A DNA stretch of 38,742 bases from Candidatus Saganbacteria bacterium (lineage in GTDB: Bacteria > Margulisbacteria > WOR-1 > O2-12-FULL-45-9), in contig JABMSE010000118.1 in the NCBI GenBank assembly GCA_013204645.1, forward strand, positions 1 to 38,742, in the 5' to 3' direction. The position numbers and the translations under genes were made by a program. This document shows positions 134 through 33,956 of the stretch, piece after piece. The notes beneath the pieces are model-generated. The model was not told where the DNA came from. It saw nothing but the letters and a program-made list of their open reading frames with translations, and did not search any database. Each line of letters starts with the position of its first letter. Positions within the stretch are counted from its first letter, which is position 1.

Positions 134-160
134 TTATCGATTCTTTCTCCCAGAAATTTC
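134..160 (-). promoter_or_regulatory. Sigma-28-like promoter reading left: GAAATTTC-N11-ATCGATAA
   Basis: Reverse complement gaaatttc tgggagaaaga atcgataa; same spacing as the other sites in the window. Confidence 0.5.
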
Positions 161-170
161 ACTAAAAAGT

Positions 171-197
171 GAAATTTCTGCTAATTGCTGCCGATAT
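171..197 (+). promoter_or_regulatory. Sigma-28-like promoter: GAAATTTC-N11-GCCGATAT
   Basis: gaaatttc tgctaattgct gccgatat, 25 nt upstream of the ATG at 223. Confidence 0.6.
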
Positions 198-222
198 ATA
201 GTACGGAGGTACATGATTACCC

Positions 223-1080
223 ATGCGTGGAGCAACTGGCTTGCCCGAATCTAAAATACGCCCTGCCTTAAAGGTTATGTGGTATTGCCGCCAACTTTTT
301 GTTGGGGCATTAGTTCGCGTAACCAAGGGAGATTATCAACGTTTAGGGATAAGCCCCCAATTTTTCAAAAGGGGCGCCTTGTTTTTTCTTTTAGAAAAGG
401 CAAGTGAGGGGAGACTATCAGCGGTACGTAAACGTGGATATCCGCAGGGATTTTATCCTATGAGTGAGAATGGCGATCTCAATGCCTTCTTACAAGGTAG
501 AATTGCATACTTGCCCGAGCGCTCACGCGTCATTGCTCTTCCTAAAGGTTTTAACCCATCGACCGTCTTTCATGAAATTCTGCATGACATTTTTGCGGGA
601 GGCGGACTTTCTGTTTCTGAGCGGCAAGAATTTGTTAGAAATGTACTTAATCGGCTTCGAGACTCAGGAAACCCCGACATGCCCGATAGCCACAAAAATG
701 CTCCTTTCTTTGCCAAAGTGGCAGAAATTTGTTCAGAAAAATACGACATTGGGGCAATTTCTCCCCTCTATAACGTGGGGAGGCCATGGGAAGATCCTGA
801 TTTTATGATTTTCGCCGGAGAATGTTTCGCCTATGCTGGAGAATTTATGCTGCATCCACAAGCAGTTCCTTTTGATGCAATTCCAAAAGAAATGGAATCT
901 GAGCTAAGATTTATGCGGATTTTTGATCGCGCTCACTTAGATCAAGTAGTAAGACTCGTTAGCAACGCTCTAAACCCAGGGAACGAGGTTTCCATACACC
1001 CGCTATCCTCAACAACTGTTTCTCCGGACGCAGCCAGCCCCGCAATGGCCAGTGCCATGGCAATGCGATGGTCGCCATAG
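223..1080 (+). CDS. Putative zinc metallopeptidase-like protein (HEILH motif)
   Basis: ORF with VFHEILHDIF (HExxH) and a downstream ECFAYAGE; GGAGGT upstream; sigma-28-like promoter. Confidence 0.6.
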   Translation: MRGATGLPESKIRPALKVMWYCRQLFVGALVRVTKGDYQRLGISPQFFKRGALFFLLEKASEGRLSAVRKRGYPQGFYPMSENGDLNAFLQGRIAYLPERSRVIALPKGFNPSTVFHEILHDIFAGGGLSVSERQEFVRNVLNRLRDSGNPDMPDSHKNAPFFAKVAEICSEKYDIGAISPLYNVGRPWEDPDFMIFAGECFAYAGEFMLHPQAVPFDAIPKEMESELRFMRIFDRAHLDQVVRLVSNALNPGNEVSIHPLSSTTVSPDAASPAMASAMAMRWSP

Positions 1081-2354
1081 CTTTTGACTTTTGCGCCCTT
1101 CAGCTTGGTTGACCCGGAAATTATCATCCCATCTTCTAACTCTTTTATCTCTTCGCCCATTTTTCTAAGCTCACTAGAGATAGTTTTTATGCGGTCGCTT
1201 TCTTTGATGCGCAGCTCGCGGGCTCCACGGATTTCGGTTGTACCCTGAGCTTGAGTTGCGGCCACGGCAATAATTGGAATTTCATCAATAATGCGGGGAA
1301 TAATTTCCCCGGAAATTTTTATTCCTCTGAGCCCTCTTGTTTCTACGTTGCTGTGTTGCTGTGTTGTTGTGACCCTGATACTAGCTCTGGGCTCCTCGCA
1401 AAGCATCTGCTCGTCGCTCACTTCTAACTGTGCTCCCATCCTATGCAAAACATCAATAATACCTGTTCTAGTAGGATTAACTCCAACATTGCGAATTAAT
1501 AACTCAGAATTTGGAACAATAAGACCAGCCACCAGAAAAAATGCAGCGGACGACAGATCGCCTGGAACATCAATCTCCTTGCCCTCAAACTCCCTATTCC
1601 CAATAATTTTACTGATTACGGTTAACTGGTTAGTGGTTACTTTAATATCCGCGCCGAAATAAGCCAACATGCGCTCGGTGTGGTCCCTGGCTTGCTTTTT
1701 CTCAACTACAATTGTTTCGCCACCTGCAAAAAGCCCGGCTAAAAGAATAGCGGATTTAACTTGAGCAGATGCAACCGGCAATTCATATTCGATGGGGTTA
1801 AGTTTGCCACCTTTAATGGTTAAGGGGGCATAGATTTCCTCTCCTCCGGATCCTCTTACTTCTGCGCCCATTTCCCTCAGAGGCTTTACGATCCTCATCA
1901 TCGGCCGTTTTTGAATTGATTTATCGCCAGTAATTTTGGTGGTAAACGGCTGTCCAGCCAAAATCCCCGACAACAGGCGAATAGTGGTTCCAGAATTACC
2001 CACGTCCAGCATTTCCTTAGATGCGGTGAGCCCTGACAGTCCTTTCCCTTTTATAATAATTTTACATTCATTTGACACTTCGTGCTGAGCCTTGTCTTTA
2101 TTCTCAGTGCGAAGCATTTGACATTTGCTCGTCCCGAGCGAAGTCGAGGGATCATTTGACATTTGGATCGGGATCCCCAATTTACCCAAGCAATCCACCG
2201 TGGCCAAACAATCCGCACTTGGTAGAAATCCATTTACGATGGTCTCGCCAGCTGCCAGTGAGCCAATTATAATCGCTCGATGGGAAATTGATTTATCGCC
2301 AGGGACGTGGAGGGTACCCTTCAAGTTTTTCTTGGATGAGACTGTTAATTGCAT
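942..2354 (-). CDS. aroA: 3-phosphoshikimate 1-carboxyvinyltransferase (EPSP synthase)
   Basis: Motifs VPGDKSISHRA, LDVGNSGTTIRLLSGILA, RIKESDRI, YGDHRIAMALAIAGL; start chosen at MQLTVSSKK, internal to the longer ORF. Confidence 0.95.
   Translation of the reverse strand: MQLTVSSKKNLKGTLHVPGDKSISHRAIIIGSLAAGETIVNGFLPSADCLATVDCLGKLGIPIQMSNDPSTSLGTSKCQMLRTENKDKAQHEVSNECKIIIKGKGLSGLTASKEMLDVGNSGTTIRLLSGILAGQPFTTKITGDKSIQKRPMMRIVKPLREMGAEVRGSGGEEIYAPLTIKGGKLNPIEYELPVASAQVKSAILLAGLFAGGETIVVEKKQARDHTERMLAYFGADIKVTTNQLTVISKIIGNREFEGKEIDVPGDLSSAAFFLVAGLIVPNSELLIRNVGVNPTRTGIIDVLHRMGAQLEVSDEQMLCEEPRASIRVTTTQQHSNVETRGLRGIKISGEIIPRIIDEIPIIAVAATQAQGTTEIRGARELRIKESDRIKTISSELRKMGEEIKELEDGMIISGSTKLKGAKVKSYGDHRIAMALAIAGLAASGETVVEDSGCMETSFPGFRALLTSLTT
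1347..1373. repeat. Interspersed coding repeat, family D (GTTGCTGTGTTGCTGTGTTGTTGTGAC)
   Basis: Same unit pattern as in tyrA, apgM and miaA; encodes TTTQQHSN in aroA. Confidence 0.6.
2076..2165. repeat. Short palindromic repeats inside aroA (CTTCGTGCTGAG..CTCAGTGCGAAGCATTTGAC and CTCGTCCCGAGCGAAGTCGAGGGATCATTTGAC)
   Basis: First unit recurs in ctpA (18872-18915); encodes the non-core segment PSTSLGTSKCQMLRTENKDKAQHEVSNE. Confidence 0.65.
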
Positions 2355-2387
2355 CGGATTAATTATACAGTTTTTTCTTAAAAAAGT

Positions 2388-2414
2388 GAAATTCGTCACA
2401 TATCTTAACGAGAT
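2388..2414 (+). promoter_or_regulatory. Degenerate sigma-28-like promoter: GAAATTCG-N11-AACGAGAT
   Basis: Same spacing; weaker -10; upstream of the ATG at 2429. Confidence 0.35.
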
Positions 2415-2428
2415 ATCTATGAGATAAA

Positions 2429-3166
2429 ATGAAAACACAATTTCCCCCCGGAATAGCACGATTTAAAGGCAACTGGAAAACTCACTTAGGAACGGTTGAG
2501 CAAAAAGCAGGAGCAGTAAAGGAAGGAATTCTCTATACTGAACATATTCCTGGCAACTTGCCTTTCTTAACCACTTCCATGAGACCCCCAGTAGAAGAAA
2601 TTGACCTTTTACCCGCAAAACAAATACCTTCCTTTGAAATTGCGCGCTTATCACACCGCCTCTCTAGCAATATCATGGGCCCTGGTTTAAAATGTTATGG
2701 GGCCTTTCTTGGATATTTAGAAGGGATCCAGATTCCAGTAGCAATCAAGTTCCCTAACTTTTCTGCATATAAACATTATGGTCCTTTTGAGCTTGCCTTT
2801 CAGGTGGAGCTTCTGGCTATCCAATTAGCAAGCCAAATAGGTTTAGGTCCAGAATTTATAGGGAGAGTAACTTACAGGCTTCCAGTAAGGAAACCAGGGG
2901 TAAAAGGTTATGCAATGACGCTCGTTCCTGGAGATTTTTATCAGGCGGAGAAAGAATCTCCCGTCTCCACTTGTGGAAATGACCTGCAAAGAATCACGGA
3001 AGTAGCAACAGAGCATTCTTTAGCGCTTGAGATAATTCTTCGTCATTCTCATCTCACTCCATCAGGCAGGCTTGTTCCCATTGATGCTCACGACTGGCTA
3101 CGGCCTGCAATTTACAATCAATATCTCCATTTAATTGAGGGAGATTTCTTGCAATTTTTACCCTAA
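2429..3166 (+). CDS. Hypothetical protein
   Basis: 245-aa ORF; no family recognised with confidence. Confidence 0.6.
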   Translation: MKTQFPPGIARFKGNWKTHLGTVEQKAGAVKEGILYTEHIPGNLPFLTTSMRPPVEEIDLLPAKQIPSFEIARLSHRLSSNIMGPGLKCYGAFLGYLEGIQIPVAIKFPNFSAYKHYGPFELAFQVELLAIQLASQIGLGPEFIGRVTYRLPVRKPGVKGYAMTLVPGDFYQAEKESPVSTCGNDLQRITEVATEHSLALEIILRHSHLTPSGRLVPIDAHDWLRPAIYNQYLHLIEGDFLQFLP

Positions 3167-3219
3167 AAAATCGAATTCCTGAAGTGCTTTGCGCGCTCGA
3201 GCTCTTTTTCAATCTTTTT
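3163..3219 (-). pseudogene. Duplicated 3' tail of tyrA (KKIEKELERAKHFRNSIF*)
   Basis: Near-identical to the tyrA C-terminus KIEKELERVKNFRNSIL*. Confidence 0.7.
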
Positions 3220-3442
3220 CATTCATTCAAATTAATTAAATATGTTTTTAGAAATTTCTCTACGGCTTTCACGGTTTCATCTTTCAACTTGGCAGGGATT
3301 GAAGCTATCTACCTTTTTGCTGTAATAATGCCAATTTTTGATGTTAACCTATGACCTCTCGGTTAACATAGGTTAACTGCCCATTAGAGGTTAACGCAAA
3401 GAAGGCAAATCTGTCAAGCAAATTCTAGGATTTACTCAAATT

Positions 3443-4291
3443 CTACAAAATCGAATTTCTGAAATTCTTCACCCTTTCCAACTCTTTCTCAATCTTCTCT
3501 GCATCGCCTTCTTTAATGAGGCGTTCAAGTTTGGATAGAGATTTTTTGAAAGCAGAAATCATGGCGAGGACGGCTTTTTTGTTGGTGGTAAACATATCAA
3601 CCCCAAGAATGGGGTCACCCGAGGCAATGCGGGTTGTATCGCGAAAGCCGGAAGCCGCACATTTTTGCATCTCTTCTTTTCCGGCTTCGGAAGCAGCCAC
3701 GACATCAACTAAAGCAGCCGCCACAGCAAGCGGCATATGGCTAATCCCAGCTACAGCTAGATCGTGCAGCTTGGGATCCATTATGACTGTGTTGCTATGC
3801 AGCCGTGTCACTATGTCACTAATTTTCTCTAATGCCTTTTTGCTGGTTTTTGAAGTGGGAGCTAGTATCCACAGCTTTTGATTAAAAAGGGTGGCCTCGG
3901 CTTCTTTTAGCTTTACCTTTTCCTTGCCAGCCATGGGGTGACCACCTACAAAATAGGTTCCCTTGGGCATGATCTTGTCAGCTTGAGAGACAATCTCATA
4001 CTTTGAGCTTCCAACATCAGTTGCAATGGCTCCCTTCTTAAGGGCCGGGGCGATTTCTTTAAGAATTGGAATAATCAAATTGATCGGTGTGCAAATAAAA
4101 ACAATATCCGCATCAGCTACACCTTTCTTGGGATCAGTCGTCCCGCAATCAATTGCCCCACCAGCAATTGCTTCTTTTACGGTTTCTTCCCTGCGCGGAA
4201 TTCCAATAACTCGCAAGTCAGCATTTTGCTGCTTTAAGGCTAAGCCAATTGATCCCCCAATTAAGCCCACTCCGATAATTGCTATCCTCAT
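3443..4291 (-). CDS. tyrA: Prephenate dehydrogenase
   Basis: N-terminal GVGLIGGSIGLALK Rossmann motif, VGGHPMAG, SHMPLAVAAAL. Confidence 0.9.
   Translation of the reverse strand: MRIAIIGVGLIGGSIGLALKQQNADLRVIGIPRREETVKEAIAGGAIDCGTTDPKKGVADADIVFICTPINLIIPILKEIAPALKKGAIATDVGSSKYEIVSQADKIMPKGTYFVGGHPMAGKEKVKLKEAEATLFNQKLWILAPTSKTSKKALEKISDIVTRLHSNTVIMDPKLHDLAVAGISHMPLAVAAALVDVVAASEAGKEEMQKCAASGFRDTTRIASGDPILGVDMFTTNKKAVLAMISAFKKSLSKLERLIKEGDAEKIEKELERVKNFRNSIL
3787..3818. repeat. Interspersed coding repeat, family D (degenerate)
   Basis: gtgttgctatgcagccgtgtcactatgtcact; encodes RLHSNT in tyrA. Confidence 0.45.
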
Positions 4292-4328
4292 GCCTCAATC
4301 TTATTCCAAATCATTTTAAAATTCAACT

Positions 4329-4355
4329 GAAATTTTCACCTTTTCCTATCGATAT
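4329..4355 (+). promoter_or_regulatory. Sigma-28-like promoter: GAAATTTT-N11-ATCGATAT
   Basis: gaaatttt caccttttcct atcgatat. Confidence 0.6.
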
Positions 4356-4365
4356 ATATATAGAT

Positions 4366-5481
4366 ATGTTAAGAAACGTAGGCAACCTTAGAACTCAACA
4401 CTTGAATATGCAAAAGCGCCTTGTAGAAAAGGTGAGGCAGCAGGTAGGAAATACTCCACCGAAAGTCCTTGTTTTCTATGGCGAACATGCACCACTTGAG
4501 CCTATGGAAAAAACCGCTCAACTTCTTTCTCAAACTTTTGCCCCTCCAGAAGTTGTTTTGGTAGAGATTCCAACGGCTCATACCCCTTTAGGCTATGCCC
4601 TTTCGGCCCATGATTTTATTGCAGAACAGAGCCAAAGGATGGTAGATGGAACACAGGTTTTAGCAGATTTTACCGTCCAAGAAAATGTGGATTTTGGAGA
4701 ACAGCTTCAAGCGCTTATGAGAGAGGTGACGCAAAGAATTGAATCTCTCTTGCATGTTTATAATGCTGGTTTTGAACAAAACAACGGTGTTGCCGGCAAT
4801 AATGTACGCAAAGGAATGCTTAAATTGCTCAAAAAAGAAGTTGGAAACGACAAATCCCTTGGAAAATTTAAAGACATGCTCGATGCCCTAAGACAGCTAA
4901 AAGATATTGCCCCCTTGCTGGAACTAGTTTGTTTTGAACTGGCAAAAGAATATCCTGGAACATATTTTGCAACCCTACACTTGCAGTGGCCTGGATATAT
5001 CACCTATCATATGGACCTACCAGAGAAAAAAGTAATGAGCACTTTAGCTGCGGCCGAAACAAACATCGCCGTTGCTAGAGCTATCAACCAGACTTACGCC
5101 CGGCAGGTCGATCACTGGAATACTGAAAGGGTCCCTCTTTTCTCTCCCCTCGTGCGAGAGCTCTTGCCGGTATCCGAATTTGACACGGAGGTTCCTTTTA
5201 CCGTTTTTGAAATGCCCCAACTTTTACTAGAATCAACCGCTCCTCATCCTGAAACCCTGGCAAGAGCAACCTACGGCGCTTTCTTGCTCCAAGACCCCTT
5301 TGATATCAGTAACGATAAATCTCAAGGTAATTGGGATATGGATTATTTCCGGACCACCACCGAAAACAAGGCAGAAGAACATGCTGGAAATATTGCGGAA
5401 TTTTTGACACATGTGTTGAGAGCTGGTCCAGAAACCAGGGTATCTTTAAGCGGGGAAACACCCCTACACCGTTCTACTTAA
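4366..5481 (+). CDS. Hypothetical protein
   Basis: Start placed at or after the predicted sigma-28 TSS (MLRNVGNL at 4366, or MQKRL at 4408); no recognised family. Confidence 0.6.
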   Translation: MLRNVGNLRTQHLNMQKRLVEKVRQQVGNTPPKVLVFYGEHAPLEPMEKTAQLLSQTFAPPEVVLVEIPTAHTPLGYALSAHDFIAEQSQRMVDGTQVLADFTVQENVDFGEQLQALMREVTQRIESLLHVYNAGFEQNNGVAGNNVRKGMLKLLKKEVGNDKSLGKFKDMLDALRQLKDIAPLLELVCFELAKEYPGTYFATLHLQWPGYITYHMDLPEKKVMSTLAAAETNIAVARAINQTYARQVDHWNTERVPLFSPLVRELLPVSEFDTEVPFTVFEMPQLLLESTAPHPETLARATYGAFLLQDPFDISNDKSQGNWDMDYFRTTTENKAEEHAGNIAEFLTHVLRAGPETRVSLSGETPLHRST

Positions 5482-6706
5482 ACAAAAATTTCAGCAGCTC
5501 GTGGCCATTTTTTATCCGCAGCTTTGATTTCTTAATCTCTTTCTCGCTATAGCCCTTAACGCCCTTTATCACCTTACGGGCCTTTATGGCTTCGCCCTGA
5601 GCAAATCTTTGTTGCTCAGCCCGAAGGGGCCGTTCTCCATTTTGGTAAATCACAAACGGCACCGGATCCGCCGTGTGGGTCATAAGCCTAATCGGTGTTG
5701 GATGGTCAGGAAGAACCAGTATCTTTGTCGCTATGTTGCTATGTTGCTGCGTCCACTCTAGAACAGTCCCTACCACATACTTATCAAAATCCTGGATAGC
5801 TTGGATCTTATGCTTGATGTTTCCTTCGTGGCCGGCCTCATCTGGTGCTTCCACGTGCACAAAAACAACATCGTTTCTTTTTAGGGCGCGCAAAGCATAC
5901 CTGGCTTTTTGTTCATAATCCGTATCCAGGTAGCCCGTTGCACCTGGAACATTTATAACTTCCATGCCCAAAACCTTACCCATACCCTTTAGGAGATCAA
6001 CTGCGGTAATGATGGCGCCTTTTTTGCCAAATTTTTTCACGAAGGCTGGCATCGTAGGAGATTTTCCTTGTCCCCACGGCCAAATCATCGTGGCTTGGGT
6101 CCCCAGATTATGCAGCAAAACTTCGCTCTCGTTCATTAATTGCAATAAAAGTTGGGCACCTCGGCCTTTTGGCAAATATTTGCCAATATTTTTCCCGGTA
6201 ATATCATGGGGCGGCGTTGTAGCGACATCGGCACATCGGCTTCGCTCGGCACCGGACTTAATTACCAGGAGATGCCGATAACTTAACCCGGGATAAAATC
6301 TGATCTCTTTAGTGCCTAACTTTTGATCAAGTAACTCTATGATCCGGCGAGCCGAAACTGTGTCAATATGCCCAGCCGTAAAATCAGACATTTTGTGGTT
6401 TTTAATCGATACCAGATTGCAGCGAAAAGCAACTTCGTCCTTTTTTAGCTTGACGCCTAAACTTGCTGCTTCCAGCGGGCCACGGCCAGAATAATATTTT
6501 TTGGGATCATAACCAAAGATGCTCATGTTAGCTACATCAGATGCTGGCTGCATACCGCGGGGAACATTGTTAACCCAACCTACAATCCCCTTTTGCGCCA
6601 AGAAATCCATATTAGGGGTTTTGGCGGCCGAAAGTGGGGTTTTACCTTTAAGTTTCTTTAAGGGGTAATCCGTCATCCCATCGCCGATTAAAACAATGTA
6701 TTTCAT
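5474..6706 (-). CDS. apgM: 2,3-bisphosphoglycerate-independent phosphoglycerate mutase (archaeal-type, ApgM)
   Basis: MKYIVLIGDGMTDYP, GRGPLEAASLGV, FVHVEAPDEAGHEG, LPDHPTPI..RTHT-like LMTHTADPVPF. Confidence 0.9.
   Translation of the reverse strand: MKYIVLIGDGMTDYPLKKLKGKTPLSAAKTPNMDFLAQKGIVGWVNNVPRGMQPASDVANMSIFGYDPKKYYSGRGPLEAASLGVKLKKDEVAFRCNLVSIKNHKMSDFTAGHIDTVSARRIIELLDQKLGTKEIRFYPGLSYRHLLVIKSGAERSRCADVATTPPHDITGKNIGKYLPKGRGAQLLLQLMNESEVLLHNLGTQATMIWPWGQGKSPTMPAFVKKFGKKGAIITAVDLLKGMGKVLGMEVINVPGATGYLDTDYEQKARYALRALKRNDVVFVHVEAPDEAGHEGNIKHKIQAIQDFDKYVVGTVLEWTQQHSNIATKILVLPDHPTPIRLMTHTADPVPFVIYQNGERPLRAEQQRFAQGEAIKARKVIKGVKGYSEKEIKKSKLRIKNGHELLKFLFK
5588..5638. repeat. Palindromic repeat, family A (GGCTTCGCCCTGAG..GCTCAGCCCGAAGGGGCCG), in frame in apgM
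   Basis: Inverted repeat; second copy at 26467-26512. Confidence 0.65.
5726..5751. repeat. Interspersed coding repeat, family D
   Basis: gtcgctatgttgctatgttgctgcgt; encodes QQHSNIAT in apgM. Confidence 0.6.
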
Positions 6707-6707
6707 G

Positions 6708-23556: not shown

Positions 23557-24486
23557 TCACAAGAGAACATCTCGTACGACTCGAAAGCCAACATCGTTGT
23601 GGCGAAGATCAGGTTCGCTTCCATCACGAAAAACACATTCTAAAAAAGAGGATGCGGTGCTTTCAAAACTACCCCCGCGTAGCACGCGCTCTCTTCCTTC
23701 GTAAGCAGGCCCTCTTGGATTGTGTGAATCAGAGAAATTAAATTCACTTGTAGCGCAGGACCAACTATGTACCCACTCTGATACCTGCCCAGACATATCA
23801 TAAACAGCATAAGGACTTTGTCCTCTTTCCACGCCGGGACGATTAACTGGCTGGGTCCTCGTGCTAGCAAAAACCACTCCCCGTTCTTCTGCTTGAAAAG
23901 TGTTTCCCCAGGGAAACTGTTGGGCATTTATTCCACGCGCTGCTTTTTCCCATTCAAATTCGGTTGGCAATCTTACCCGTGCCCACTTACAAAAGGCAAG
24001 CGCATCGTCAAAGCTCACCCCAACAACCGGAAGGTGCTCTCCTATCGGCTGCCCATCCCCATCTAAAGCAGAAATCCCCAAGTACCTATCGTTCCAATAT
24101 TGTGGCTGCCTATGTCCAGTGGCCTCTAAAAATCCTTGGTACTGACTATTGGTAATAGGGGTTTGGCTCATGAAAAAAGTAGGTAAAACCAAGTTAACGG
24201 CCGACCTCTCACGAAAATAAAAGGCGCCAGCAGGAATCGCTACCAGCTGCGGCAACACAACCTCTCCTCCTGCTAACCACAGCAAAATCTTATCAGTTCT
24301 TTCCTCTCTCAAAAGAGAAGCAACTCTTTGCTTTACTACCGGCAGCCCATAAAGGCGGAGTGCATCCACAAAATCATCTATCTGGCTAGCGTCTATATCT
24401 TGTAATCTAGCCCGCAGCTCATCCCGAGAAGGAATCGGCTGCAAGCTCTCTTGCATATTAAATGATATTAGTTTTAGGTTATACAT
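23557..24486 (-). CDS. Formylglycine-generating enzyme / SUMF1-like domain protein
   Basis: TPITNSQYQGFLEATGH, PVVGVSFDDALAFCKWARVRLPTEFEWEKAARG, VYDMSGQVSEWV, VLRGGSF, GFRVVRD; start possibly at 24456. Confidence 0.88.
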   Translation of the reverse strand: MYNLKLISFNMQESLQPIPSRDELRARLQDIDASQIDDFVDALRLYGLPVVKQRVASLLREERTDKILLWLAGGEVVLPQLVAIPAGAFYFRERSAVNLVLPTFFMSQTPITNSQYQGFLEATGHRQPQYWNDRYLGISALDGDGQPIGEHLPVVGVSFDDALAFCKWARVRLPTEFEWEKAARGINAQQFPWGNTFQAEERGVVFASTRTQPVNRPGVERGQSPYAVYDMSGQVSEWVHSWSCATSEFNFSDSHNPRGPAYEGRERVLRGGSFESTASSFLECVFRDGSEPDLRHNDVGFRVVRDVLL

Positions 24487-24551: not shown

Positions 24552-24578
24552 TTATCGTAGGGGTTTTTAGAAAATTTC
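24552..24578 (-). promoter_or_regulatory. Sigma-28-like promoter for the FGE-like gene: GAAATTTT-N11-TACGATAA
   Basis: Reverse complement gaaatttt ctaaaaacccc tacgataa. Confidence 0.6.
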
Positions 24579-24588
24579 ACTAAAAAGT

Positions 24589-24615
24589 GAAATTGTTTGG
24601 GGAAGCGTTCGATAA
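24589..24615 (+). promoter_or_regulatory. Sigma-28-like promoter for the TPR gene: GAAATTGT-N11-TTCGATAA
   Basis: gaaattgt ttggggaagcg ttcgataa. Confidence 0.6.
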
Positions 24616-24624: not shown

Positions 24625-25821
24625 ATGACAAGGATCGCTGCTACTAATCCAATGCAAATATTGGCCCAAGCACGAGGGCACTTTGAGGCAGGGCAGATAA
24701 GCTGGGGAGTTGTTTCATTTCATCAACTCCACGCTCAGGCAACGCTACAGCTGCCACACTATCTAAAAATAGCAACTATGTTGCGCAAAAGCAACTGCAT
24801 AGAGTTAGCACTGATCTCTGGAAAAATAGCAAAAGCTGAGCTCTTATTTATCGAAAAATGCATAGAAGCGATTGCCCTCATTGCAGCAGAAGTACAGCTC
24901 GGACGCCGAACTCTAGCTCCCAAACCCAAACAAGAGATCGAAGAAAACATGCCCCATATTTATTTTCATGCTGGGATTTTTTGCCTGGCCCGAGGAGATA
25001 CCAAGAACGCCAATACTTATTTCCTCTTTGCCGGAAAACTGGGGAAGGGAAACTTTTGGCCTGAGGCCATTTCTGGGGGCATCTCTTCAGAAGAGCTTGC
25101 TGGCTTGGTTGCCGATGACCCAGCGCTAGCAGCCGAATCTTTGGGGCCTGCCTTTGCTTTTATTAAATCAACCTTTGCCAAAGCAGCAATTCCTCCTCCG
25201 GCAGCGCCTAGCCATGGAAGGCCCCCAGCTTCGAGGGCAGCGGCAGCACAACTAGCTCCCGCATCCAAACCCAATCCCAAAAAACTTATTAACAAAGCCC
25301 AAGGGGCCTTATCGCAAAACAATCCAACTGAGGCCTTTTCTTTTATTAGGCAAGCACGAACCTGTGCAAAGAACGAGCAGCAAAGAGCCATTCTCGATTA
25401 CCTAGAAGCAGTTGCTGAGGTTAAATTAAGGCATTTTGGGAGGGCCTCCCTATTACTAGCCAAGATAACGCCAGGCCATCCGCGTTACGGCAGATCAATA
25501 AAATATAAACTTATTGTGTTTGACAAAACTAAGCGCTACAGCGAGGGGCTTGAACTTCTAGGGCGGGAAGGTCATGCTCTACAGAACGGAAAAAGAACAC
25601 AAGTTATTTTATATTATGAATATCGAGCTCGTTTTCTTTTAGCCAGAGGGCAAAAAGATGTGAGAGAGGGAAGTAGGTGGGGAGCTGAGAACGACTTCGA
25701 GTCTGCTGACACTGCATTAGCGCATGCACGGTCTCTGCAAGATTCCCCTGAACTTAGAAGATTACAAAGCTGGATCGATCGCGACAAAGAAGCTCTTGAA
25801 AGAGCAGAAAGAGGATATTAG
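24625..25821 (+). CDS. TPR-like repeat protein
   Basis: Repeated helical Ala-rich segments (ARGHFEAGQISWGVVSFHQLHAQA, AQGALSQNNPTEAFSFIRQAR). Confidence 0.55.
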   Translation: MTRIAATNPMQILAQARGHFEAGQISWGVVSFHQLHAQATLQLPHYLKIATMLRKSNCIELALISGKIAKAELLFIEKCIEAIALIAAEVQLGRRTLAPKPKQEIEENMPHIYFHAGIFCLARGDTKNANTYFLFAGKLGKGNFWPEAISGGISSEELAGLVADDPALAAESLGPAFAFIKSTFAKAAIPPPAAPSHGRPPASRAAAAQLAPASKPNPKKLINKAQGALSQNNPTEAFSFIRQARTCAKNEQQRAILDYLEAVAEVKLRHFGRASLLLAKITPGHPRYGRSIKYKLIVFDKTKRYSEGLELLGREGHALQNGKRTQVILYYEYRARFLLARGQKDVREGSRWGAENDFESADTALAHARSLQDSPELRRLQSWIDRDKEALERAERGY

Positions 25822-25828
25822 TAATACG

Positions 25829-26431
25829 ATGCCACAACGAGTAAGCAATGGAAATGGACCTCAAAGAGGACGGCCGGTGGGCGAACGCTTGTTTCGCCAA
25901 GCACAAGCCGCACAAGCACGCGGAGATCGAATTGGCGTCTTAGCGGTCATGCTTGAGTGGGTAAAATTACAAGATATCCAAGAATCAAGGAGAGCCTTTG
26001 CACAATATCTAGCCCAGGTTTGTGATCAGTGGATCCCATTAGAACACAAGGAACCAGCCGATGTAAGAAAGGTCCAAAAAATTATTGCTGATATGAAAGA
26101 AATAGCCCTCACTGCTATTCAAAGCGCGCAAGCTGAGTATTTAGAAGTGGTCTGCCTTTTTGAACAAAAGAGATACGATAAAGTACTCGAGCTTTTAGAG
26201 CGCCTTAGCCCAGAGCATCGCTACCATGTAGAAACCTTAAGGACTCGGTTAAGTTGCTATCAAAGATTGCAAAGGTTTGAGGAGGGCGCTGCCTTTCTTT
26301 CAACCGTAAACCGTCTGCTGCCCGATGAAACAGCTGCGGGATTTGCAAGAGCTTTTCGTAGCACCCCAAGAGCACCGGAGCGTAACGGAAGACGTCCTCC
26401 CTGGGCTTTTGCCCTGGATGACGATGAATAA
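25829..26431 (+). CDS. TPR-like hypothetical protein
   Basis: GERLFRQAQAAQARGDRIGVLAVMLEWVKLQD; directly downstream of the preceding TPR-like gene. Confidence 0.55.
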   Translation: MPQRVSNGNGPQRGRPVGERLFRQAQAAQARGDRIGVLAVMLEWVKLQDIQESRRAFAQYLAQVCDQWIPLEHKEPADVRKVQKIIADMKEIALTAIQSAQAEYLEVVCLFEQKRYDKVLELLERLSPEHRYHVETLRTRLSCYQRLQRFEEGAAFLSTVNRLLPDETAAGFARAFRSTPRAPERNGRRPPWAFALDDDE

Positions 26432-26519: not shown

Positions 26520-27605
26520 TTAAACCTTAAACCGCACCAAAACCAAGTCACCATCCTGCACTACATAATTCTTGCCTTCGGTATGAAGAACCCCTTTTTC
26601 GCGAGCTTTGGAGTAGGAGCCGACGCTTGCTAAATCATTATAATGTATAACCTCGGCGGCAATAAAACCACGCTGCATGTCAGAGTGCACTTTGCCAGCA
26701 GCCTGTGGAACTGTGGTTTCCTTCTTAACTGTCCAGGCTCGACATTCTTTTTGATTGGCCGTGAAAAAAGTAATCAGATCAAGTAATTTGTAGCCATTTT
26801 TTATTAGCTTTTGCAATCCTGTTTCGGAAAGTCCAATTTCTTTTTTATAGGCTTTTGCGTCTTCTTCTGGAAGTTGGGCAATTTCAGATTCAAGTTGAGC
26901 ACAAACCACAACGACCCTCGTTCCTTCCTCCCTCGCCACTTTCTCAATAATTTCAACCTGCTCGGGGTTTCCTGACTCATCCACATTCGCCACATAAAGA
27001 ACTGGCTTAAAGGTCAAAAGTGGAAGATCTCGTACAAAATCCTTTTCGTTATCAGCAATTTTCACGCTGCGGGCCGGCCTGCCAGCCCCTAGCGCATCCT
27101 TTAATTTTTGCAAAACCTCCGCTTGCTTGCGCAATGTCTTGTCTCCAGCTTTAGCTTTTATTGACACCTCCCGCAAGCGCTTCTCGACCAAGGCTAAATC
27201 AGCCAAGTTTAATTCAATATTTATGATTTCAATGTCATTTTTGGGGTTAACTTCACCGGCTACATGGGCAATCTCCTGGGATTTAAAGCAGCGCACCACA
27301 TTGACGATCGCATCGACTTCCCGGATGTGAGATAAGAATTGATTGCCCAGGCCCTCCCCTTTATGTGCCCCCTTCACCAACCCCGCAATATCATAAAACT
27401 CAATCACCGTCGGAATAACCTTGGAGGAGCCGATGATTTTCTGAACCTGATAAAGCCTTTCATCCGGGACTTCAACGATACCGACATTGGGATTGATGGT
27501 GCAGAAAGGGTAATTTGAAACCTCGGCCCGAGCAGAAGAGAGCATATTAAATAATGTGGATTTGCCAACATTTGGAAGGCCAATAATACCTAGCGAAAAG
27601 CCCAT
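26520..27605 (-). CDS. ychF: Redox-regulated ATPase YchF (OLA1-like)
   Basis: GIIGLPNVGKSTLFNMLS, FYDIAGLVKGAHKGEGLGNQFLSHIREVDAI, TFFTANQKECRAWTV. Confidence 0.95.
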   Translation of the reverse strand: MGFSLGIIGLPNVGKSTLFNMLSSARAEVSNYPFCTINPNVGIVEVPDERLYQVQKIIGSSKVIPTVIEFYDIAGLVKGAHKGEGLGNQFLSHIREVDAIVNVVRCFKSQEIAHVAGEVNPKNDIEIINIELNLADLALVEKRLREVSIKAKAGDKTLRKQAEVLQKLKDALGAGRPARSVKIADNEKDFVRDLPLLTFKPVLYVANVDESGNPEQVEIIEKVAREEGTRVVVVCAQLESEIAQLPEEDAKAYKKEIGLSETGLQKLIKNGYKLLDLITFFTANQKECRAWTVKKETTVPQAAGKVHSDMQRGFIAAEVIHYNDLASVGSYSKAREKGVLHTEGKNYVVQDGDLVLVRFKV

Positions 27606-27666
27606 AGATCTTGATTATAGCACAGTTATTTGGTATAATATTATTATCTCGAAAAGGGGGTAAATT

Positions 27667-28455
27667 ATGCGTTATTTGATTGTTTTGTTGATTGGGTTAT
27701 CATTGCTTTTGGGAGGTTTTTCAACTGAGGGCTATGCCAAGAAGGGGAGATTGACCCCAAGGCAGCGGGCAAAAATAAAAGCTCGCGTTCATAATCTAAC
27801 TCCTGCGCAAAAAGAACAAGCCGCTGCAGCCCTAAGACAAAAAATGATCCGTTTGGAAAATGCATCCGAAAAAGCCACCGCTGGTGCAAGTAGGGCTTTG
27901 ATTGAAGCGGACCTTGAAAGGGTTCAGGTTGAGTTAGGGTTGATTGCGCCTCCACCGATGGTAAAACCCCTCCGGCCAAAACCACCCCTTCCTCCAGGCA
28001 AAAAACCTCTACCACCTAAGGCTCAACTGCGTGGGCCACGCGTAGCTGTTTCAGTTGGCTATTTAGCCGGAATGATCGCTGCCCAAGGAGAACTCCGATA
28101 CTTTGAACCGTTTGGTTTAACTCAAATCACCTCTCAAATTGGCGCAGCTTATGCCCAAGGAGAAGATAGCGATAAAGTCCTTCGCAAACATGCTTTGATC
28201 ATACTAGGAGGAGCCTATAATTTAAACCCTCCAAAAACTTCAGGGCTTAGATCCTATATTGGCGTAGCAGCCAACTATGATGCCTATACCACTGGCAAAG
28301 TTTCTGGAACTTTTGGTGGAGAAGCTTATTACGGACTCGAAGGTGGTGCTCCCAAGGGTGGAAAAACTTTCTTTGAAGTTGGTTACGGCACCATTCGCAC
28401 TGGCTTTAGCCCAGATTATACGGGAGTAATTGCGCGGTTGGGTTATAAGTTCTAG
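27667..28455 (+). CDS. Secreted or outer-membrane beta-barrel-like protein
   Basis: N-terminal signal peptide; Gly/aromatic-rich C-terminal half ending in GVIARLGYKF. Confidence 0.55.
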   Translation: MRYLIVLLIGLSLLLGGFSTEGYAKKGRLTPRQRAKIKARVHNLTPAQKEQAAAALRQKMIRLENASEKATAGASRALIEADLERVQVELGLIAPPPMVKPLRPKPPLPPGKKPLPPKAQLRGPRVAVSVGYLAGMIAAQGELRYFEPFGLTQITSQIGAAYAQGEDSDKVLRKHALIILGGAYNLNPPKTSGLRSYIGVAANYDAYTTGKVSGTFGGEAYYGLEGGAPKGGKTFFEVGYGTIRTGFSPDYTGVIARLGYKF

Positions 28456-28476
28456 TTCTCGATTATTTATCTTAAC

Positions 28477-28509
28477 AAAAAAGACCCTGATTTATCGGGG
28501 TCTTTTTTT
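28477..28509 (+). terminator. Rho-independent terminator
   Basis: aaaaagaccctgatttatcggggtcttttttt. Confidence 0.85.
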
Positions 28510-28565
28510 ATGGATTGCAAACCTTGTTTCCCCTTTTCTTTTATCTAGAAATCTTTAAAAAACTT

Positions 28566-28592
28566 GAAATTTTCTTGAAATGCTGCCGATAA
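28566..28592 (+). promoter_or_regulatory. Sigma-28-like promoter for the GH16 gene: GAAATTTT-N11-GCCGATAA
   Basis: gaaatttt cttgaaatgct gccgataa; best match to the classical GCCGATAA. Confidence 0.7.
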
Positions 28593-28638
28593 ACCTTTGA
28601 CCATAAGGCTTTACTAAAGCAATAAAAGGAGTTTAATC

Positions 28639-30027
28639 ATGAATATTTCAGTTATTGATAGAATTTATTCGGTTTTCTTTTCTTCTCCTCTTTCGGCTTG
28701 CAATCCATCGGCGGGTGAAACAAGAACTGCTCAGGCTGCTCCAGATGATCCAACTCCGGCCCCAGTAACGGCTTCGGCTGATCCCCCTCCTCAAGCAACG
28801 GCTGATGCCTTGATAACCTGGGATGCACAAACTGCCCAGGAAATGAATCAGCATGAGGGAGGAAATTGGCATATGGCCAATTGGTCTAATGGTAATCCAT
28901 TTGATTGTACCTGGCAGCCGGACAATATTAGTTTTAATGATGGCATTATGACACTTACATTAGATAATAAGGGGTGTCCGGCTAGCTGCAACAGCGAGCC
29001 CTATGCTTCAGGAGAATATCGCACAATGCAGGAAACTTACGGCTATGGATATTACGAAACAAGTATGAAGGCAGCAGCTGGAGAAGGACTGGTGTCAGCC
29101 TTCTTCGTATACACAGGCGTTCACAGTCAACCATCGCATCAAGAAATTGACTTTGAAATTTTAGGAAAAGACTGCACCCAAGTCCAAACCAATTATTTTT
29201 CTGGAGTTCGTGATAGGGAGAAAGAAGAACAAGGCCTGTACGAAGAAAAGATCGATCTTGGTTTTAATGCCTGCGAAGAATTCCATAATTATGGTTTTAT
29301 GTGGGCAGCGGATTCTCTCGTCTGGTATATAGATGGGCAGCCTGCCCGAACTGTTTCACAGGCTGATGGAGCAAGTATTCCCCACGGAAAAACAAAGATA
29401 ATGCTAAATCTTTGGCCAGGCCGAGGTGTGGATGGGTGGCTAGGTCAGTTTGAATATCCGGGTCAGCCAATCACTGCTCAATACGATTGGATAAGATATT
29501 CTCCTCTGACTGACTTCGTTGAAGGAGCAGGTCCTCCTTCAGTAGAAGGACCTACATCAAAACCACCTACGGCACCTATTTCCAAAGAAGTCCCTCCCAC
29601 ACCGGCCACTGAAGGAACATTGCTGGTTAGTTCTTTTGCTGGAGGATCCTTTAATTTCAATGGTGGATTGTTTGCTAAAAAAACTGCTGAGCATTATACT
29701 TTTTCAGCTAGTCAAGCAGGCGATGCTGGTGGAGGAATCTTTTGTTCAAACCAAGATATTGCTGCTCATTCTACTTTAAAGTTTGAAATTGACGGATCGG
29801 TCACCCAACACGGAAACTGGACAAGATTGATTGTGCAGGTTTACGATGATGGTGACAGCAATTCTGCTCCATCTGTAAGTTTTGATCCCATTATTGTATC
29901 TGCTGACCAACAAACAATTGAGGTCCCTCTTCATAGCCAAGTAGATAATTTAGCTAAAATTCAGTTTATGCTGGTGGCCGATAGCGGAAGTTGTAATGTA
30001 GATATTTACAATTTGCGGTTTGAGTAG
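28639..30027 (+). CDS. Glycoside hydrolase family 16-like (beta-glucanase type) with C-terminal domain
   Basis: HQEIDFEILGKD (ExDxxE catalytic motif), SGEYRTMQETYGYGYYETSMKAA, HNYGFMWAADSLVWYIDGQ; AAAGGAG SD. Confidence 0.9.
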   Translation: MNISVIDRIYSVFFSSPLSACNPSAGETRTAQAAPDDPTPAPVTASADPPPQATADALITWDAQTAQEMNQHEGGNWHMANWSNGNPFDCTWQPDNISFNDGIMTLTLDNKGCPASCNSEPYASGEYRTMQETYGYGYYETSMKAAAGEGLVSAFFVYTGVHSQPSHQEIDFEILGKDCTQVQTNYFSGVRDREKEEQGLYEEKIDLGFNACEEFHNYGFMWAADSLVWYIDGQPARTVSQADGASIPHGKTKIMLNLWPGRGVDGWLGQFEYPGQPITAQYDWIRYSPLTDFVEGAGPPSVEGPTSKPPTAPISKEVPPTPATEGTLLVSSFAGGSFNFNGGLFAKKTAEHYTFSASQAGDAGGGIFCSNQDIAAHSTLKFEIDGSVTQHGNWTRLIVQVYDDGDSNSAPSVSFDPIIVSADQQTIEVPLHSQVDNLAKIQFMLVADSGSCNVDIYNLRFE

Positions 30028-30029
30028 AA

Positions 30030-32120
30030 TTACTTCATAAAATCGAGCTGGCTGATGTCAATGGCTTCAAAGCCGTCGTCACGGCTTTTGATTTCAACAT
30101 GATCGTAATCCCCAATCTCAATTTCATCTTTAGCCTCTTCTTCCTGGGCGTCCCATTTTTCATAAAGCTCTGACGAAAGCTCTTCTAGGTAGCGGGATGT
30201 ACGCATAATCACCTGGCCATCATAGCCGGAGTAGATCAAAGGGTAAGACAGATAAAGTTCGTCTTTAGCCCGGGTAATGGCCACATAAAATAAGCGGCGC
30301 TCCTCTTCCATCTCCTCTTCTTTTCCAAAACTCAAATAGGAAGGGAAGCGACCATCGGCCAACCAAGGCACAAAAACTATTTTCCATTCCAGTCCCTTTG
30401 CCTGATGAACAGTTGAAAGCACACAGGCTTCCTTATCGCCGCTATCGCCCTCAACAATGGTTTCCGATTCAATGCCCGAAACTAGTGCCAAAGCACTTAA
30501 AAGGGTTTCAAGATTTTTAAATTGGACCGCATATCCTCCCAGCTGCTCCAGATCCTCCATGCGTTCCCGATAATTTGGATATTGGTTTTTTAAGTGGTCT
30601 TCGTAACTTGATCGCGAAATCATTTTTATCATTTCAGATGGCGAATCAAGCTGCGATAATTCTCTGAGTAAGGACTGAAAAATCTTAAAAGACCTTTCTG
30701 CCCCGCTTGGAACAATTTTTAATACTTCTTTGCCAAGAATCTCTTCCAGGGGCTTGGGAGATTGATGGATAAATTGAAATATTTTAGCTGCGGTGCGCGC
30801 CCCAACTCTCTCCAAAAGTTTTAATATTCGGCCCCAAGAAATTTCATCAAAAGGATTATGGAAAACCTTTAGGTGGGCTAACACATCCTTGATATGGGCT
30901 TCCTCAAAAAAGCGAATGCCTGATCTTACCTCAAAGGGAATGCCCCTTTTCGTCAGCTCCATTTGGATTTCCATTGACTGATAATGGGAACGGTAGAGCA
31001 CGGCCATGTCATTTAAGCTGTGGCCTTGTTCGCGAAGCTCAAGCATTCGCTGGGCAATAAAAATGGCCTGCTCGTTCACGGTGTTTAAGGATAGCAGGAT
31101 GGGTTTTTCGCCTTGGGGCCGATTGGGGCGCAGGGATTTTTTAAATTTCTCCTTTGCCTGCGCAATGCTGGCATTGGCCATGTTTAAAATTTCCGGAGTT
31201 GAGCGGTGATTAAGCTCCAGCTTAAAAAGCTTGGCCTTAGGATAAACCTTGGGAAATTTCATTATATTTTTAAAGTGGGCACCCCGGAAGCTGTAAATGG
31301 ATTGTGAGTCATCTCCGACGGCCATAATATTTCCATGGTGCGAAGCTAGGATATCGATTATTTTTGCCTGAATGAGATTAGTGTCTTGATACTCATCCAC
31401 CAAAACATGCATAAATTTTTTGGCATAGGTTTGTGCAATATCAGGATTGTCCGCAAGTAACTTCCACCAGTAAAAGAGCAGGTCATCAAAGTCCATCAGG
31501 CTATTTTTCTTTTTCCGCTGCTGGTAGCGGTTAAAAATATCTTCAATCTCATCGGTTAAGGGTTCAAATTGAGGATAATTATAAGCAACAACATCACTAA
31601 TTTTTCGTCGCGTATTAACCGCTAAGCCAAAAATTGAACAGAGGTTATCGCCTTTGGGAAAGCGTCTGGCCTTAACGTCAATGTTGGCTTCGGTGATTGC
31701 AGCATCAATTAGTTCTTTTGAATCAGCTCGATCCAAAATAGTAAAGTTTGGCTTATATCCGATCTCCTTGGCGTGCTTGCGCAGGATGCGGTTACCGACA
31801 TGGTGAAAGGTCCCGCCCCAAATCCCTTTAACATCACGCTTCAAGAGCATCTCCACTCGAGAAAGCATCTCACGGGCGGCTTTGTTGGTAAAAGTAACCA
31901 GCAAGATTCTGTCCAGCGGAACGCCTGATTCAACCAAGTAGGCAACACGATAAGTAACGGTGCGGGTTTTGCCAGACCCGGCCCCGGCAATTACCAGCAT
32001 CGGGCCATTCTTCGCGGTTACTACTGGCAACTGCTCGGCAGTTAACTCTTGTGCATAATTAATCCGGAATTTTTTCTCCGCATTAAAATGGGTTTTTAAA
32101 ATGTACTTGTGCTGAGCCAC
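30030..32120 (-). CDS. UvrD/PcrA-type ATP-dependent DNA helicase (GTG start)
   Basis: VIAGAGSGKTRTVTYRVAYL, LLVTFTNKAAREM, LVDEYQDTN, VGDDSQSIYSFRGA, STVHQAKGLEWKIVFVP, RLFYVAITRAK. Confidence 0.95.
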   Translation of the reverse strand: MAQHKYILKTHFNAEKKFRINYAQELTAEQLPVVTAKNGPMLVIAGAGSGKTRTVTYRVAYLVESGVPLDRILLVTFTNKAAREMLSRVEMLLKRDVKGIWGGTFHHVGNRILRKHAKEIGYKPNFTILDRADSKELIDAAITEANIDVKARRFPKGDNLCSIFGLAVNTRRKISDVVAYNYPQFEPLTDEIEDIFNRYQQRKKKNSLMDFDDLLFYWWKLLADNPDIAQTYAKKFMHVLVDEYQDTNLIQAKIIDILASHHGNIMAVGDDSQSIYSFRGAHFKNIMKFPKVYPKAKLFKLELNHRSTPEILNMANASIAQAKEKFKKSLRPNRPQGEKPILLSLNTVNEQAIFIAQRMLELREQGHSLNDMAVLYRSHYQSMEIQMELTKRGIPFEVRSGIRFFEEAHIKDVLAHLKVFHNPFDEISWGRILKLLERVGARTAAKIFQFIHQSPKPLEEILGKEVLKIVPSGAERSFKIFQSLLRELSQLDSPSEMIKMISRSSYEDHLKNQYPNYRERMEDLEQLGGYAVQFKNLETLLSALALVSGIESETIVEGDSGDKEACVLSTVHQAKGLEWKIVFVPWLADGRFPSYLSFGKEEEMEEERRLFYVAITRAKDELYLSYPLIYSGYDGQVIMRTSRYLEELSSELYEKWDAQEEEAKDEIEIGDYDHVEIKSRDDGFEAIDISQLDFMK

Positions 32121-32220
32121 AAAAGAAAATCCTTTCTCAATAATTTAAGTCGAAGCACTTGTGCTGAGCCACAAAAAAAGTCCCTTCTCAATAATTTAGG
32201 TCGAAGCACTTGTGCGGCGC
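32105..32220. repeat. Tandem repeat (51-52 bp unit, about 2.2 copies) of the helicase translation-initiation region
   Basis: acttgtgctgagccacaaaa..cttctcaataattta.gtcgaagc twice, then a partial copy. Confidence 0.85.
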
Positions 32221-32272
32221 TATCATTTGCATTATAGCAAAAATATGGCCGCTTGGGAATCGGTCAGAAGGT

Positions 32273-32299
32273 GAAATTTTGGTTGCTTTTAGTCGATAT
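32273..32299 (+). promoter_or_regulatory. Sigma-28-like promoter: GAAATTTT-N11-GTCGATAT
   Basis: gaaatttt ggttgctttta gtcgatat. Confidence 0.65.
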
Positions 32300-32330
32300 A
32301 TATAGAGAGACCTACAAAGGTTCAAAAATA

Positions 32331-33761
32331 ATGCAAATTGTTGGATATTATACAAATAATGCTTGTATGGCAGGGCCACCACCCCCCTTGCAATGTGATC
32401 CTACCGTCGCTGAGTATTTGGTGGAGGATGAAAAAGGAAATATTCATATTATCTCCCCGGATATTATTTCCCCGCCCCTTGATCCGTTGGAAATTGAACT
32501 CTATATGCCAACTCCTGCCTCCGAAGAACTAGCCACTCTTTCAGCAAGGGATGAATGTTTTAAAGGGGAAAACCCAGAAATCCAAAACCTGCTATCCCTT
32601 ATCAAAGAAACTGAACCTGAATCCGCCATTTACGAATTGGAAAAAATTCAAGGTGGTCCAGCTTGCCTACGCTTAATTATTCAAGAAGGAACTTTCATGC
32701 AATATTATCTCTCAGCTAGATCTTTGACAGAATCTCCTCTGCCCGAAGCAGATACAGTTATTCGACAAATGATAACAAACAGCACCGCAACATGGGAAAA
32801 GGCCCTAGGATTAATTCTTTTGGGTTCCAGGACAGCCGCTGGCATAGAATCAGAATCCAACCCAGCAGAAATCATTTCGCCCTTTCTTGTAAGCGAGGAT
32901 CCCCTACTGCGGCTTGGCGCAATATTCGGCCTTTTGCGCATGGACGCTGAAAATGAACTAAACGAATTTGCAGAAGAAAGAAAAGGTTCCAGGATAGCGC
33001 AAACAGTCAACGGTCTTCTTTCTTACAAAGGACAAAGCACATCTTATGTTAGCACTATTCTTTTTGACTGGGCTGATCCGGGAACCTATCAGACAGCTTT
33101 TTTTCGCCACCCAACATTACTTGATGAGTTAGTAAAAGATGCCCAGGTCCATCCTGCTCAAGAATATAATGTTTGGGAAATTGGGTGTTCCTTGGGTCTT
33201 TCAACTGAAAGTGCCCGGATCGCCCTCAGCTTAAATAGAGAAGCAGCCTTTCACATTACAGGAACCGACATAAGTCCCTTTGCCCTCCTTTATGCAGCGC
33301 GAGGCAAATATCTCTTAGAAAACCTGTCACACATAGATCACTACTATTCAATTGATCCTCAGGAAAATGACTTGCAATCTTTCAGAAGGTACGTTTCGCA
33401 ACATAACTGGAATCCTGAGAAGGTCCTTAATGATTTTTTCACAAAAAAAGAATGCTCTTTGGGACCACTCTATACAGCACGGCGCGATCCAGGAATCCAT
33501 TTTATATTTGATGACGTTGCCTCCACAGACTCTTCTCTTCCCGATACTTCTTTCGACACTATAATTTATGCTAATGTCCATTACTTTTTAAGCAGAGAAG
33601 AGCGAGCACGTGCAATTCAAAAAATCCACCAAAAGCTGAAACCCGGGGGGGAAGTTTTCGTAGTAGATCCAAGGTCTCAAACATATATTGAATTTGAAGC
33701 CGCCTTTGGCAACCCCACCATAATAAAAGACGGTCCATTGATGGTTTACAGGAAGGATTAG
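32331..33761 (+). CDS. HEAT-like + CheR-like SAM methyltransferase, paralog 1
   Basis: FFRHPTLLDEL, VWEIGCSLGLSTESARIAL, ITGTDISPFALLYAARGKYLLE, FDTIIYANVHYFLSREERARAIQKIHQKLKPGGEVFVV. Confidence 0.75.
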   Translation: MQIVGYYTNNACMAGPPPPLQCDPTVAEYLVEDEKGNIHIISPDIISPPLDPLEIELYMPTPASEELATLSARDECFKGENPEIQNLLSLIKETEPESAIYELEKIQGGPACLRLIIQEGTFMQYYLSARSLTESPLPEADTVIRQMITNSTATWEKALGLILLGSRTAAGIESESNPAEIISPFLVSEDPLLRLGAIFGLLRMDAENELNEFAEERKGSRIAQTVNGLLSYKGQSTSYVSTILFDWADPGTYQTAFFRHPTLLDELVKDAQVHPAQEYNVWEIGCSLGLSTESARIALSLNREAAFHITGTDISPFALLYAARGKYLLENLSHIDHYYSIDPQENDLQSFRRYVSQHNWNPEKVLNDFFTKKECSLGPLYTARRDPGIHFIFDDVASTDSSLPDTSFDTIIYANVHYFLSREERARAIQKIHQKLKPGGEVFVVDPRSQTYIEFEAAFGNPTIIKDGPLMVYRKD

Positions 33762-33929
33762 AGCAACCTTTACACTTGGGGGCCGCCCCCACTTTTTTGC
33801 CTTAAGATAGCCAAAAACTCCTACAAATGGCCAAAAGGGGCAAAGGGGACAGTCCCCCGGAGGACTGCCCCCAACCCTTGACGTACCGGTGCCTGGCACA
33901 GAGTGACCAAATAATTCCTGCAAAAGTGT

Positions 33930-33956
33930 GAAATTTTTGCCCCCGCCTGTCGATAA
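33930..33956 (+). promoter_or_regulatory. Sigma-28-like promoter: GAAATTTT-N11-GTCGATAA
   Basis: gaaatttt tgcccccgcct gtcgataa. Confidence 0.65.

Follow-up and report, generated by a model that had tools for sequence, protein, structure and literature searches.

Sites and genes at the locus

The stretch analyzed here, hereafter the window, comprises 38,742 nucleotides (nt) and is contig 110 of a 1.78-Mb genome (G000; 160 contigs, 94% complete) from an uncultured groundwater bacterium of the WOR-1/Saganbacteria lineage in the phylum Margulisiibacteriota. It carries a recurrent promoter-like motif that an earlier reading of this DNA (the original prediction) had attributed to a sigma-28-like regulon, listing eight sites that fit GAAATTNY-N11-NNCGATAW and a ninth, degenerate one. 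All nine lie where they had been placed, eight as exact matches and the ninth with two mismatches. About 0.01 to 0.02 exact matches would be expected in the window by chance, and mononucleotide shuffles of the window gave a mean of 0.02. When spacers of 8 to 16 nt were scanned, the window yielded eight sites at 11 nt and none at any other length, while other stretches fetched from the genome yielded 77 sites at 11 nt versus 3 at all other lengths together. The dominance of 11 nt in both scans indicates that the constant spacing, which had also been predicted, was not imposed by the search.

The first two sites lie back to back and match at 15 of 15 scored positions: TGAAATTTC-N13-CGATAA (134..161, minus strand) points out of the contig, and TGAAATTTC-N13-CGATAT (170..197, plus strand) precedes an open reading frame (ORF; 223..1080, +) for an orphan regulon member without Pfam match that contains HEILH, an HExxH motif at residue 117. 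The degenerate site, TGAAATTCG-N13-CGAGAT (2387..2414, +; 12/15), has an A-tract upstream and precedes the ORF of an orphan protein without Pfam match (2429..3166, +), a possible regulon member; that this site is a promoter is plausible, its score alone being at chance level, as other places in the window also reach 12/15. A third orphan without Pfam match (4366..5481, +; start codon uncertain) is a regulon member behind TGAAATTTT-N13-CGATAT (4328..4355, +; 15/15).

A second back-to-back pair consists of TGAAATTTT-N13-CGATAA (24552..24579, −; 15/15) and TGAAATTGT-N13-CGATAA (24588..24615, +; 14/15). Behind the former lies a gene for an FGE-sulfatase-domain protein (23557..24486, −; PF03781, E = 1.2e-45) whose N-terminal LKLISFN module defines a family common to other regulon proteins, and behind the latter a 398-amino-acid (aa) regulon member without Pfam match (24625..25821, +), overlapped by a downstream ORF (25724..26431, +). 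Further along, TGAAATTTT-N13-CGATAA (28565..28592, +; 15/15) precedes a gene for a GH16 glycosidase-domain protein (28639..30027, +; PF00722, E = 1.1e-38). The last two sites (both 15/15) precede CheR-like methyltransferase-domain paralogues that share 44% identity: TGAAATTTT-N13-CGATAT (32272..32299, +) lies ahead of 32331..33761 (+; N-terminus MQIVGYYTNNACMAG; PF01739, E = 1.1e-15), and TGAAATTTT-N13-CGATAA (33929..33956, +) ahead of 33978..35315 (+; PF01739, E = 2.5e-4). The second paralogue is the probable head of an operon of three tandem CheR-like genes (33978-37959), followed by 35312..36610 (+), which overlaps it by 4 nt, and 36622..37959 (+; PF01739, E = 1.6e-8), both probably cotranscribed with it. 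The N-terminus of the middle product, SRRGLIRAAAIATGATLIGC, looks like a Tat (twin-arginine) lipoprotein signal. The original prediction also named a TPR protein; the TPR match found is a weak one in the overlapping downstream ORF at 25724..26431 (PF14559, E = 9e-5, under its gathering score).

Promoter architecture

The motif extends beyond the pattern used to find it, with T at position −1 in 98% of sites and G at −2 in 71%, such that the −35 element reads GTGAAATTTY. Counted from the start of GAAATTTY, the G at position 1 and the T at position 5 are as invariant as the spacer. Further upstream, positions −7 to −3 form an A-run and positions −17 to −11 an A/T tract, which fits the UP-element layout of Escherichia coli. 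Downstream of the −10 element by 6 to 7 nt is a TR step resembling a YR initiator, followed by a Shine-Dalgarno zone rich in purines. Most sites are intergenic and have a defined orientation, with a median distance of 39 nt to the chosen start codon (gene starts were picked by a simple score rather than by a trained gene finder). Taken together, T(−1), the A/T tract, the YR step, and the downstream starts identify the motif as a directional promoter. In the divergent window pairs (134/170 and 24552/24588), a common core, ATTTCACTAAAAAGTGAAATT, places each UP tract close to the partner's −35 element.

The original prediction likened these sites to the FliA/WhiG consensus, and this proved accurate in part. 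The −10 element, NNCGATAW at an 11-nt spacing, has the core and spacing of sigma-28 promoters. The −35 element differs from the canonical TAAAGTTT, and TAAAGTT-type sites were found neither in the window nor in the 353 kb examined; the GC of the extended −10 is also largely lost, with G retained in 56% of sites at the first position and no preference at the second.

Alternatively, the motif could be an operator for a transcription factor, with the genes themselves transcribed by RpoD polymerase. The evidence on the motif is drawn from sequence, and in both divergent pairs the sites together resemble a palindromic array. However, the motif has a direction and no symmetry: its 11-nt spacer is rigid, a UP-like tract and a YR initiator accompany it, and start codons follow downstream. 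The combination of CGATAW and an 11-nt spacer is that of sigma-28 promoters, as in E. coli sites (PMC4183435). We therefore consider an operator very unlikely.

Distribution across the genome, class, and phylum

Genome-wide counts were obtained from pattern searches with reversed-pattern controls, together with stretches fetched around sites. In G000 the exact pattern has 96 occurrences and the reversed pattern none; requiring T(−1) as well and tolerating one mismatch gives 138 versus 3. At 75/91 sites, an ORF of 150 aa or more starts within 150 nt downstream on the same strand, compared to 550/2000 random positions (27%) and to 34/82 sites in the mirror direction. The motif is therefore not distributed at random relative to gene starts. 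We surveyed 74 genomes of the phylum, 31 of them members of the WOR-1 class, and found it in all 31 (6 to 159 sites each), for a total of 1,161 sites versus 8 for the reversed pattern. Phylum members outside the class mostly have few sites, and those above control are G012 and G013 (48 and 22 sites) and G002 and G031 to G034 (7 to 19). Large orphan proteins stand behind the sites in G012 and G002, several with Ser/Asn/Arg-rich N-termini. In the distant genome G002 (loci L275 to L282), Ser/Asn/Arg-rich orphan proteins are preceded by that genome's own variant of the site, GAAATTATT...TTCGATAT-like. No obvious CGATA promoter was seen directly upstream of the flagellin genes of flagellated phylum members.

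The rpoD gene carries the motif in 19/19 class genomes examined (4 sampled first and 15 further), 14 to 39 nt before the first in-frame start. Among the 15 further genomes, 14 sites score 13 to 15 of 15, and the spacer in G073 is one nt longer. In G000 the site (G000:C100:3769-3795; L053 around 1500) extends over the final codons of dnaG and its stop. Five phylum members outside the class, searched in the same way, yielded nothing, a weak control in that the rpoD start could be located in one of them alone. The original prediction of no sites ahead of housekeeping genes thus holds within the window and fails genome-wide.

The number of copies, and the several contigs that break less than 200 nt from a site, would be expected if the motif were a dispersed repeat or the end of a mobile element. 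Such an origin was rejected, and we regard it as largely refuted and close to negligible in probability, given that spacers differ among copies, that conservation is limited to promoter positions, and that the rpoD site is orthologous across the class.

Genes behind the promoters

Besides rpoD, targets include three Ser/Thr kinases, a PP2C phosphatase, CheR-like methyltransferases, FGE-domain proteins with the LKLISFN N-terminal module, GH8, GH16, and GH72 proteins, a transglutaminase-domain protein, phosphoglycerate-kinase-domain and enolase-domain proteins, and giant proteins without Pfam match. Pfam searches of 73 target proteins returned 50 families, none of them in more than three proteins. 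In other class genomes, sites again precede genes for kinases and for FGE, GH8, starch-synthase-like, and RRM proteins.

Several individual targets have unusual features. Members of the LKLISFN-type family (K-L/I-I-S/A-F...) all lie behind sites, in the window (23557-24486), at L002, L009, L028, L047, L071, and L072, and in G072 at L201, L204, and L207, and several have FGE domains. The module is predicted to fold as a small helical bundle (predicted local distance difference test score [pLDDT], 66) for which no PDB match was found, and it is possible that it serves in targeting. At L035:7790-11200 (+), a sigma-28-type promoter precedes a protein of more than 1,100 aa, extending past the fetched stretch, in which the enolase C-domain comes before the N-domain. 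Three G000 contigs (55, 155, and 157; L034, L075, and L077) stop about 90 nt after a site and encode the same KKSTELILL string, which suggests that these promoters precede a gene or element present in several copies. In both G000 (L074) and G072 (L195), the gene for the RRM RNA-binding protein starts about 200 nt after its promoter, leaving a long leader that may be regulatory.

Candidate sigma factors

Three proteins with Sigma70_r2 domains are encoded in the genome: RpoD, a 242-aa protein, and a 200-aa protein. The latter two have matches to Sigma-70 regions 2 and 4 (PF04542 and PF04545), at E = 1e-16 and 6e-6, respectively, in the 242-aa protein and at E = 2e-7 and 3e-10 in the 200-aa protein. 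In the PDB, the 242-aa protein is best matched by FliA/WhiG sigma factors and the 200-aa protein by FliA/WhiG alone. Sigma-28 is the textbook flagellar sigma factor. Both genes lie in or next to flagellar export loci: the 242-aa protein is encoded within the operon flgF-flgG-flgA-flgH-flgI-flgJ-fliA-flgB-flgC-fliE-fliF-fliG-fliH-fliI-fliJ, with orthologues in 28/29 class genomes (60 to 78% identity), while the gene for the 200-aa protein, found in 27/29, usually adjoins flhA. A genome expected to hold a sigma-28 family gene thus holds two. The 242-aa protein presumably keeps R74 and D81 of E. coli FliA region 2.4; R91 of E. coli FliA, which is linked to the extended −10, is a Tyr in this protein, a change that would be in keeping with the reduced GC preference ahead of CGATAW. 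No FlgM-type anti-sigma factor was noticed among the annotated genes of the flagellar loci, where no dedicated search was made.

A flagellar apparatus without filament or motor

The earlier observation that no flagellar genes are visible is correct for the window, whereas elsewhere the genome encodes the export gate, ATPase, MS-ring, rod, and P- and L-rings (FlhA/B, FliP/Q/R, FliI, FliF, FlgC/F/G, FlgH, and FlgI). Also present are FliN, FliK-type proteins, and a short FlgE/F/G-family protein; the last two led us to drop a reading in which the hook is missing altogether, despite the lack of FlgD. Gene inventories of 29 class genomes recovered FlhA in all 29, two of them as fragments. Meanwhile, flagellin (PF00669) was found in 0/29, with control species and eight phylum members positive, and FlgD (PF03963), the FliG torque domain (PF01706), and the MotB plug (PF13677) were likewise found in 0/29, with controls and flagellated phylum members positive. 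FliG, at about 160 aa, consists of its N-terminal and middle domains alone. The genomes are for the most part metagenome assemblies, so that little can be read into any single absence; the basis for the absences across the class is these 29 genomes, some of which are rated 98 to 100% complete. Retention of export and rod/ring genes where filament and torque genes went undetected indicates that an envelope-spanning machine was kept and rotation was not.

Two side observations concern this apparatus. In G000, flgI contains an in-frame stop (contig 104; L080:13783-13785, −) and is uninterrupted in relatives (L096, L099, and G063), so that the stop is either a local mutation or an assembly error. 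Flagellated phylum members G028 to G035 each have two or more FlhA matches, and a flagellum and a nonrotary system may coexist in them.

A possible link between the regulon and export

Nonrandom sites and sigma-28-family factors support the original prediction of a sigma-28-like regulon, in which a sigma-28-family sigma factor would drive these promoters. We infer this pairing from sequence. That lineage-specific sigma-28-type promoters, a sigma-28-family factor, and a filament-less flagellar apparatus go together in these organisms is, on the same grounds, likely. With the 242-aa or the 200-aa protein bound, RNA polymerase would read about 100 scattered transcription units, mostly of uncharacterized genes, in addition to rpoD, and this regulon would be tied to a nonrotary, flagellum-derived export apparatus. 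Late flagellar substrates are made from sigma-28 promoters, and for this reason the simplest mechanism would be one in which the apparatus activates the sigma factor and many products are late cargo, such as exported enzymes or effectors.

Some properties of the products are consistent with export by this route. Sec-like N-termini are scarce among them (6/82, versus 32/116 in the comparison set; p = 4e-4), and in G000 their N-termini are Arg-rich and Lys-poor relative both to controls (p = 3e-13) and to their own interiors (p = 2e-4), with Arg-rich N-termini found in G063 as well (p = 0.01). From such sequence features it is conceivable, if short of probable, that a large share of the products is exported by the flagellar type III apparatus. 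A still broader proposal, which we offer tentatively and with some doubt, is that much of the Margulisiibacteriota have, as a dedicated secretion system, a flagellar type III apparatus devoid of filament and motor, with the formerly flagellar sigma factor controlling a large and rapidly changing set of secreted proteins (kinases, glycosidases, a phosphatase, FGE proteins, metabolic enzymes that were duplicated, and giant orphans) and feeding back on rpoD.

Several findings weigh against these interpretations. The 242-aa protein scores 135.3 bits against TIGR02479, its top NCBIfam hit, under the cut-off of 189.6, and is therefore best described as sigma-28-family-like rather than as a member of the curated subfamily. 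The 200-aa sigma was not detected in G072 (159 sites) nor the FliA-like sigma in G062 (25 sites), both incomplete assemblies, and either candidate may read the motif. Export operons lack an exact site, and the 12/15 match at the head of the rod/ring operon in G000 was not seen in five relatives. For the operon of the 200-aa sigma, a site with one mismatch was found in G000 and a perfect one upstream of the G044 homologue; most other class homologues have none in the fetched upstream stretch. The Arg-rich signature holds in two of four genomes and not in G055 or G072, which do not support a basic N-terminal export signal common to all. Finally, the N-termini of some products are of Sec or Tat lipoprotein type, and rpoD, the RRM protein, and the starch-synthase-like protein are of ordinary cytosolic types, indicating that not all targets are cargo.

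The same promoters could instead serve a general growth-phase or stress program, in which the sigma-28-family factor is a global alternative sigma and its products are mainly cytosolic or envelope proteins unlinked to the export apparatus. We consider this a serious possibility, held at somewhat less than even odds. It would account for the rpoD promoter in all 19 class genomes examined, for RRM and starch-synthase-like proteins as conserved targets, for the resemblance of several targets to ordinary lipoproteins or outer-membrane proteins, and for the lack of exact sites at export operons. However, the position of the FliA-like gene inside the rod/ring operon, and of the other sigma gene usually beside flhA, would then have no obvious purpose; GH8-domain products carry no visible Sec signal; and large orphan proteins with no visible signal dominate the targets, including in the outgroup genomes. 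If the export interpretation is true, then in these uncultured relatives of Cyanobacteria the promoter becomes a sequence handle for listing candidate substrates of an uncharacterized secretion machine, and the purpose of a propeller-less flagellum becomes a directly testable question.

Comparison with known systems

Those papers on this phylum that were searched make no mention of flagella or sigma factors, and the literature covered yielded no report of this regulon. Parts of the system have counterparts elsewhere. Lysobacter enzymogenes is nonflagellated and, like the WOR-1 class, kept a flagellar export system; in Lysobacter this system secretes FlgD and is itself required for toxin secretion (PMC9927559). 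It lost rod genes and fliG/fliM, and the consulted portion of that report describes no dispersed sigma-28 regulon. In Buchnera aphidicola, basal body and type III export genes were likewise retained while flagellin and motor genes were lost, and secretion has been proposed, according to the consulted sections of the source (PMC8109811). Unlike the WOR-1 class, where the pattern spans a whole environmental class, those sections describe host-restricted bacteria with reduced genomes, some with FlgD/FlgE/FlgK, and report no such sigma-28 regulon.

On the regulatory side, sigma-28 of Chlamydia trachomatis binds two genes, hctB and tsp (PMC12282069), and so resembles the present case in acting at nonflagellar genes in a bacterium with type III secretion; it differs in that WOR-1 has about 100 sites and sigma genes in or beside flagellar loci. 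FliA of E. coli has 52 binding sites, of which 30 are intragenic, with a TAAAGTTT-type −35 and a −10 of GCCGATAA (PMC4183435). The two regulons share a sigma-28-family factor, the 11-nt spacer, a CGATAA-type −10, and sites at nonflagellar genes. In contrast to those of E. coli, WOR-1 sites are mostly intergenic, have GTGAAATTTY as −35 and weak GC at the −10, and include no filament targets. In the WOR-1 class, which has lost filament and motor, sigma-28 seems to have been retained while its −35 preference changed and its targets became more numerous.

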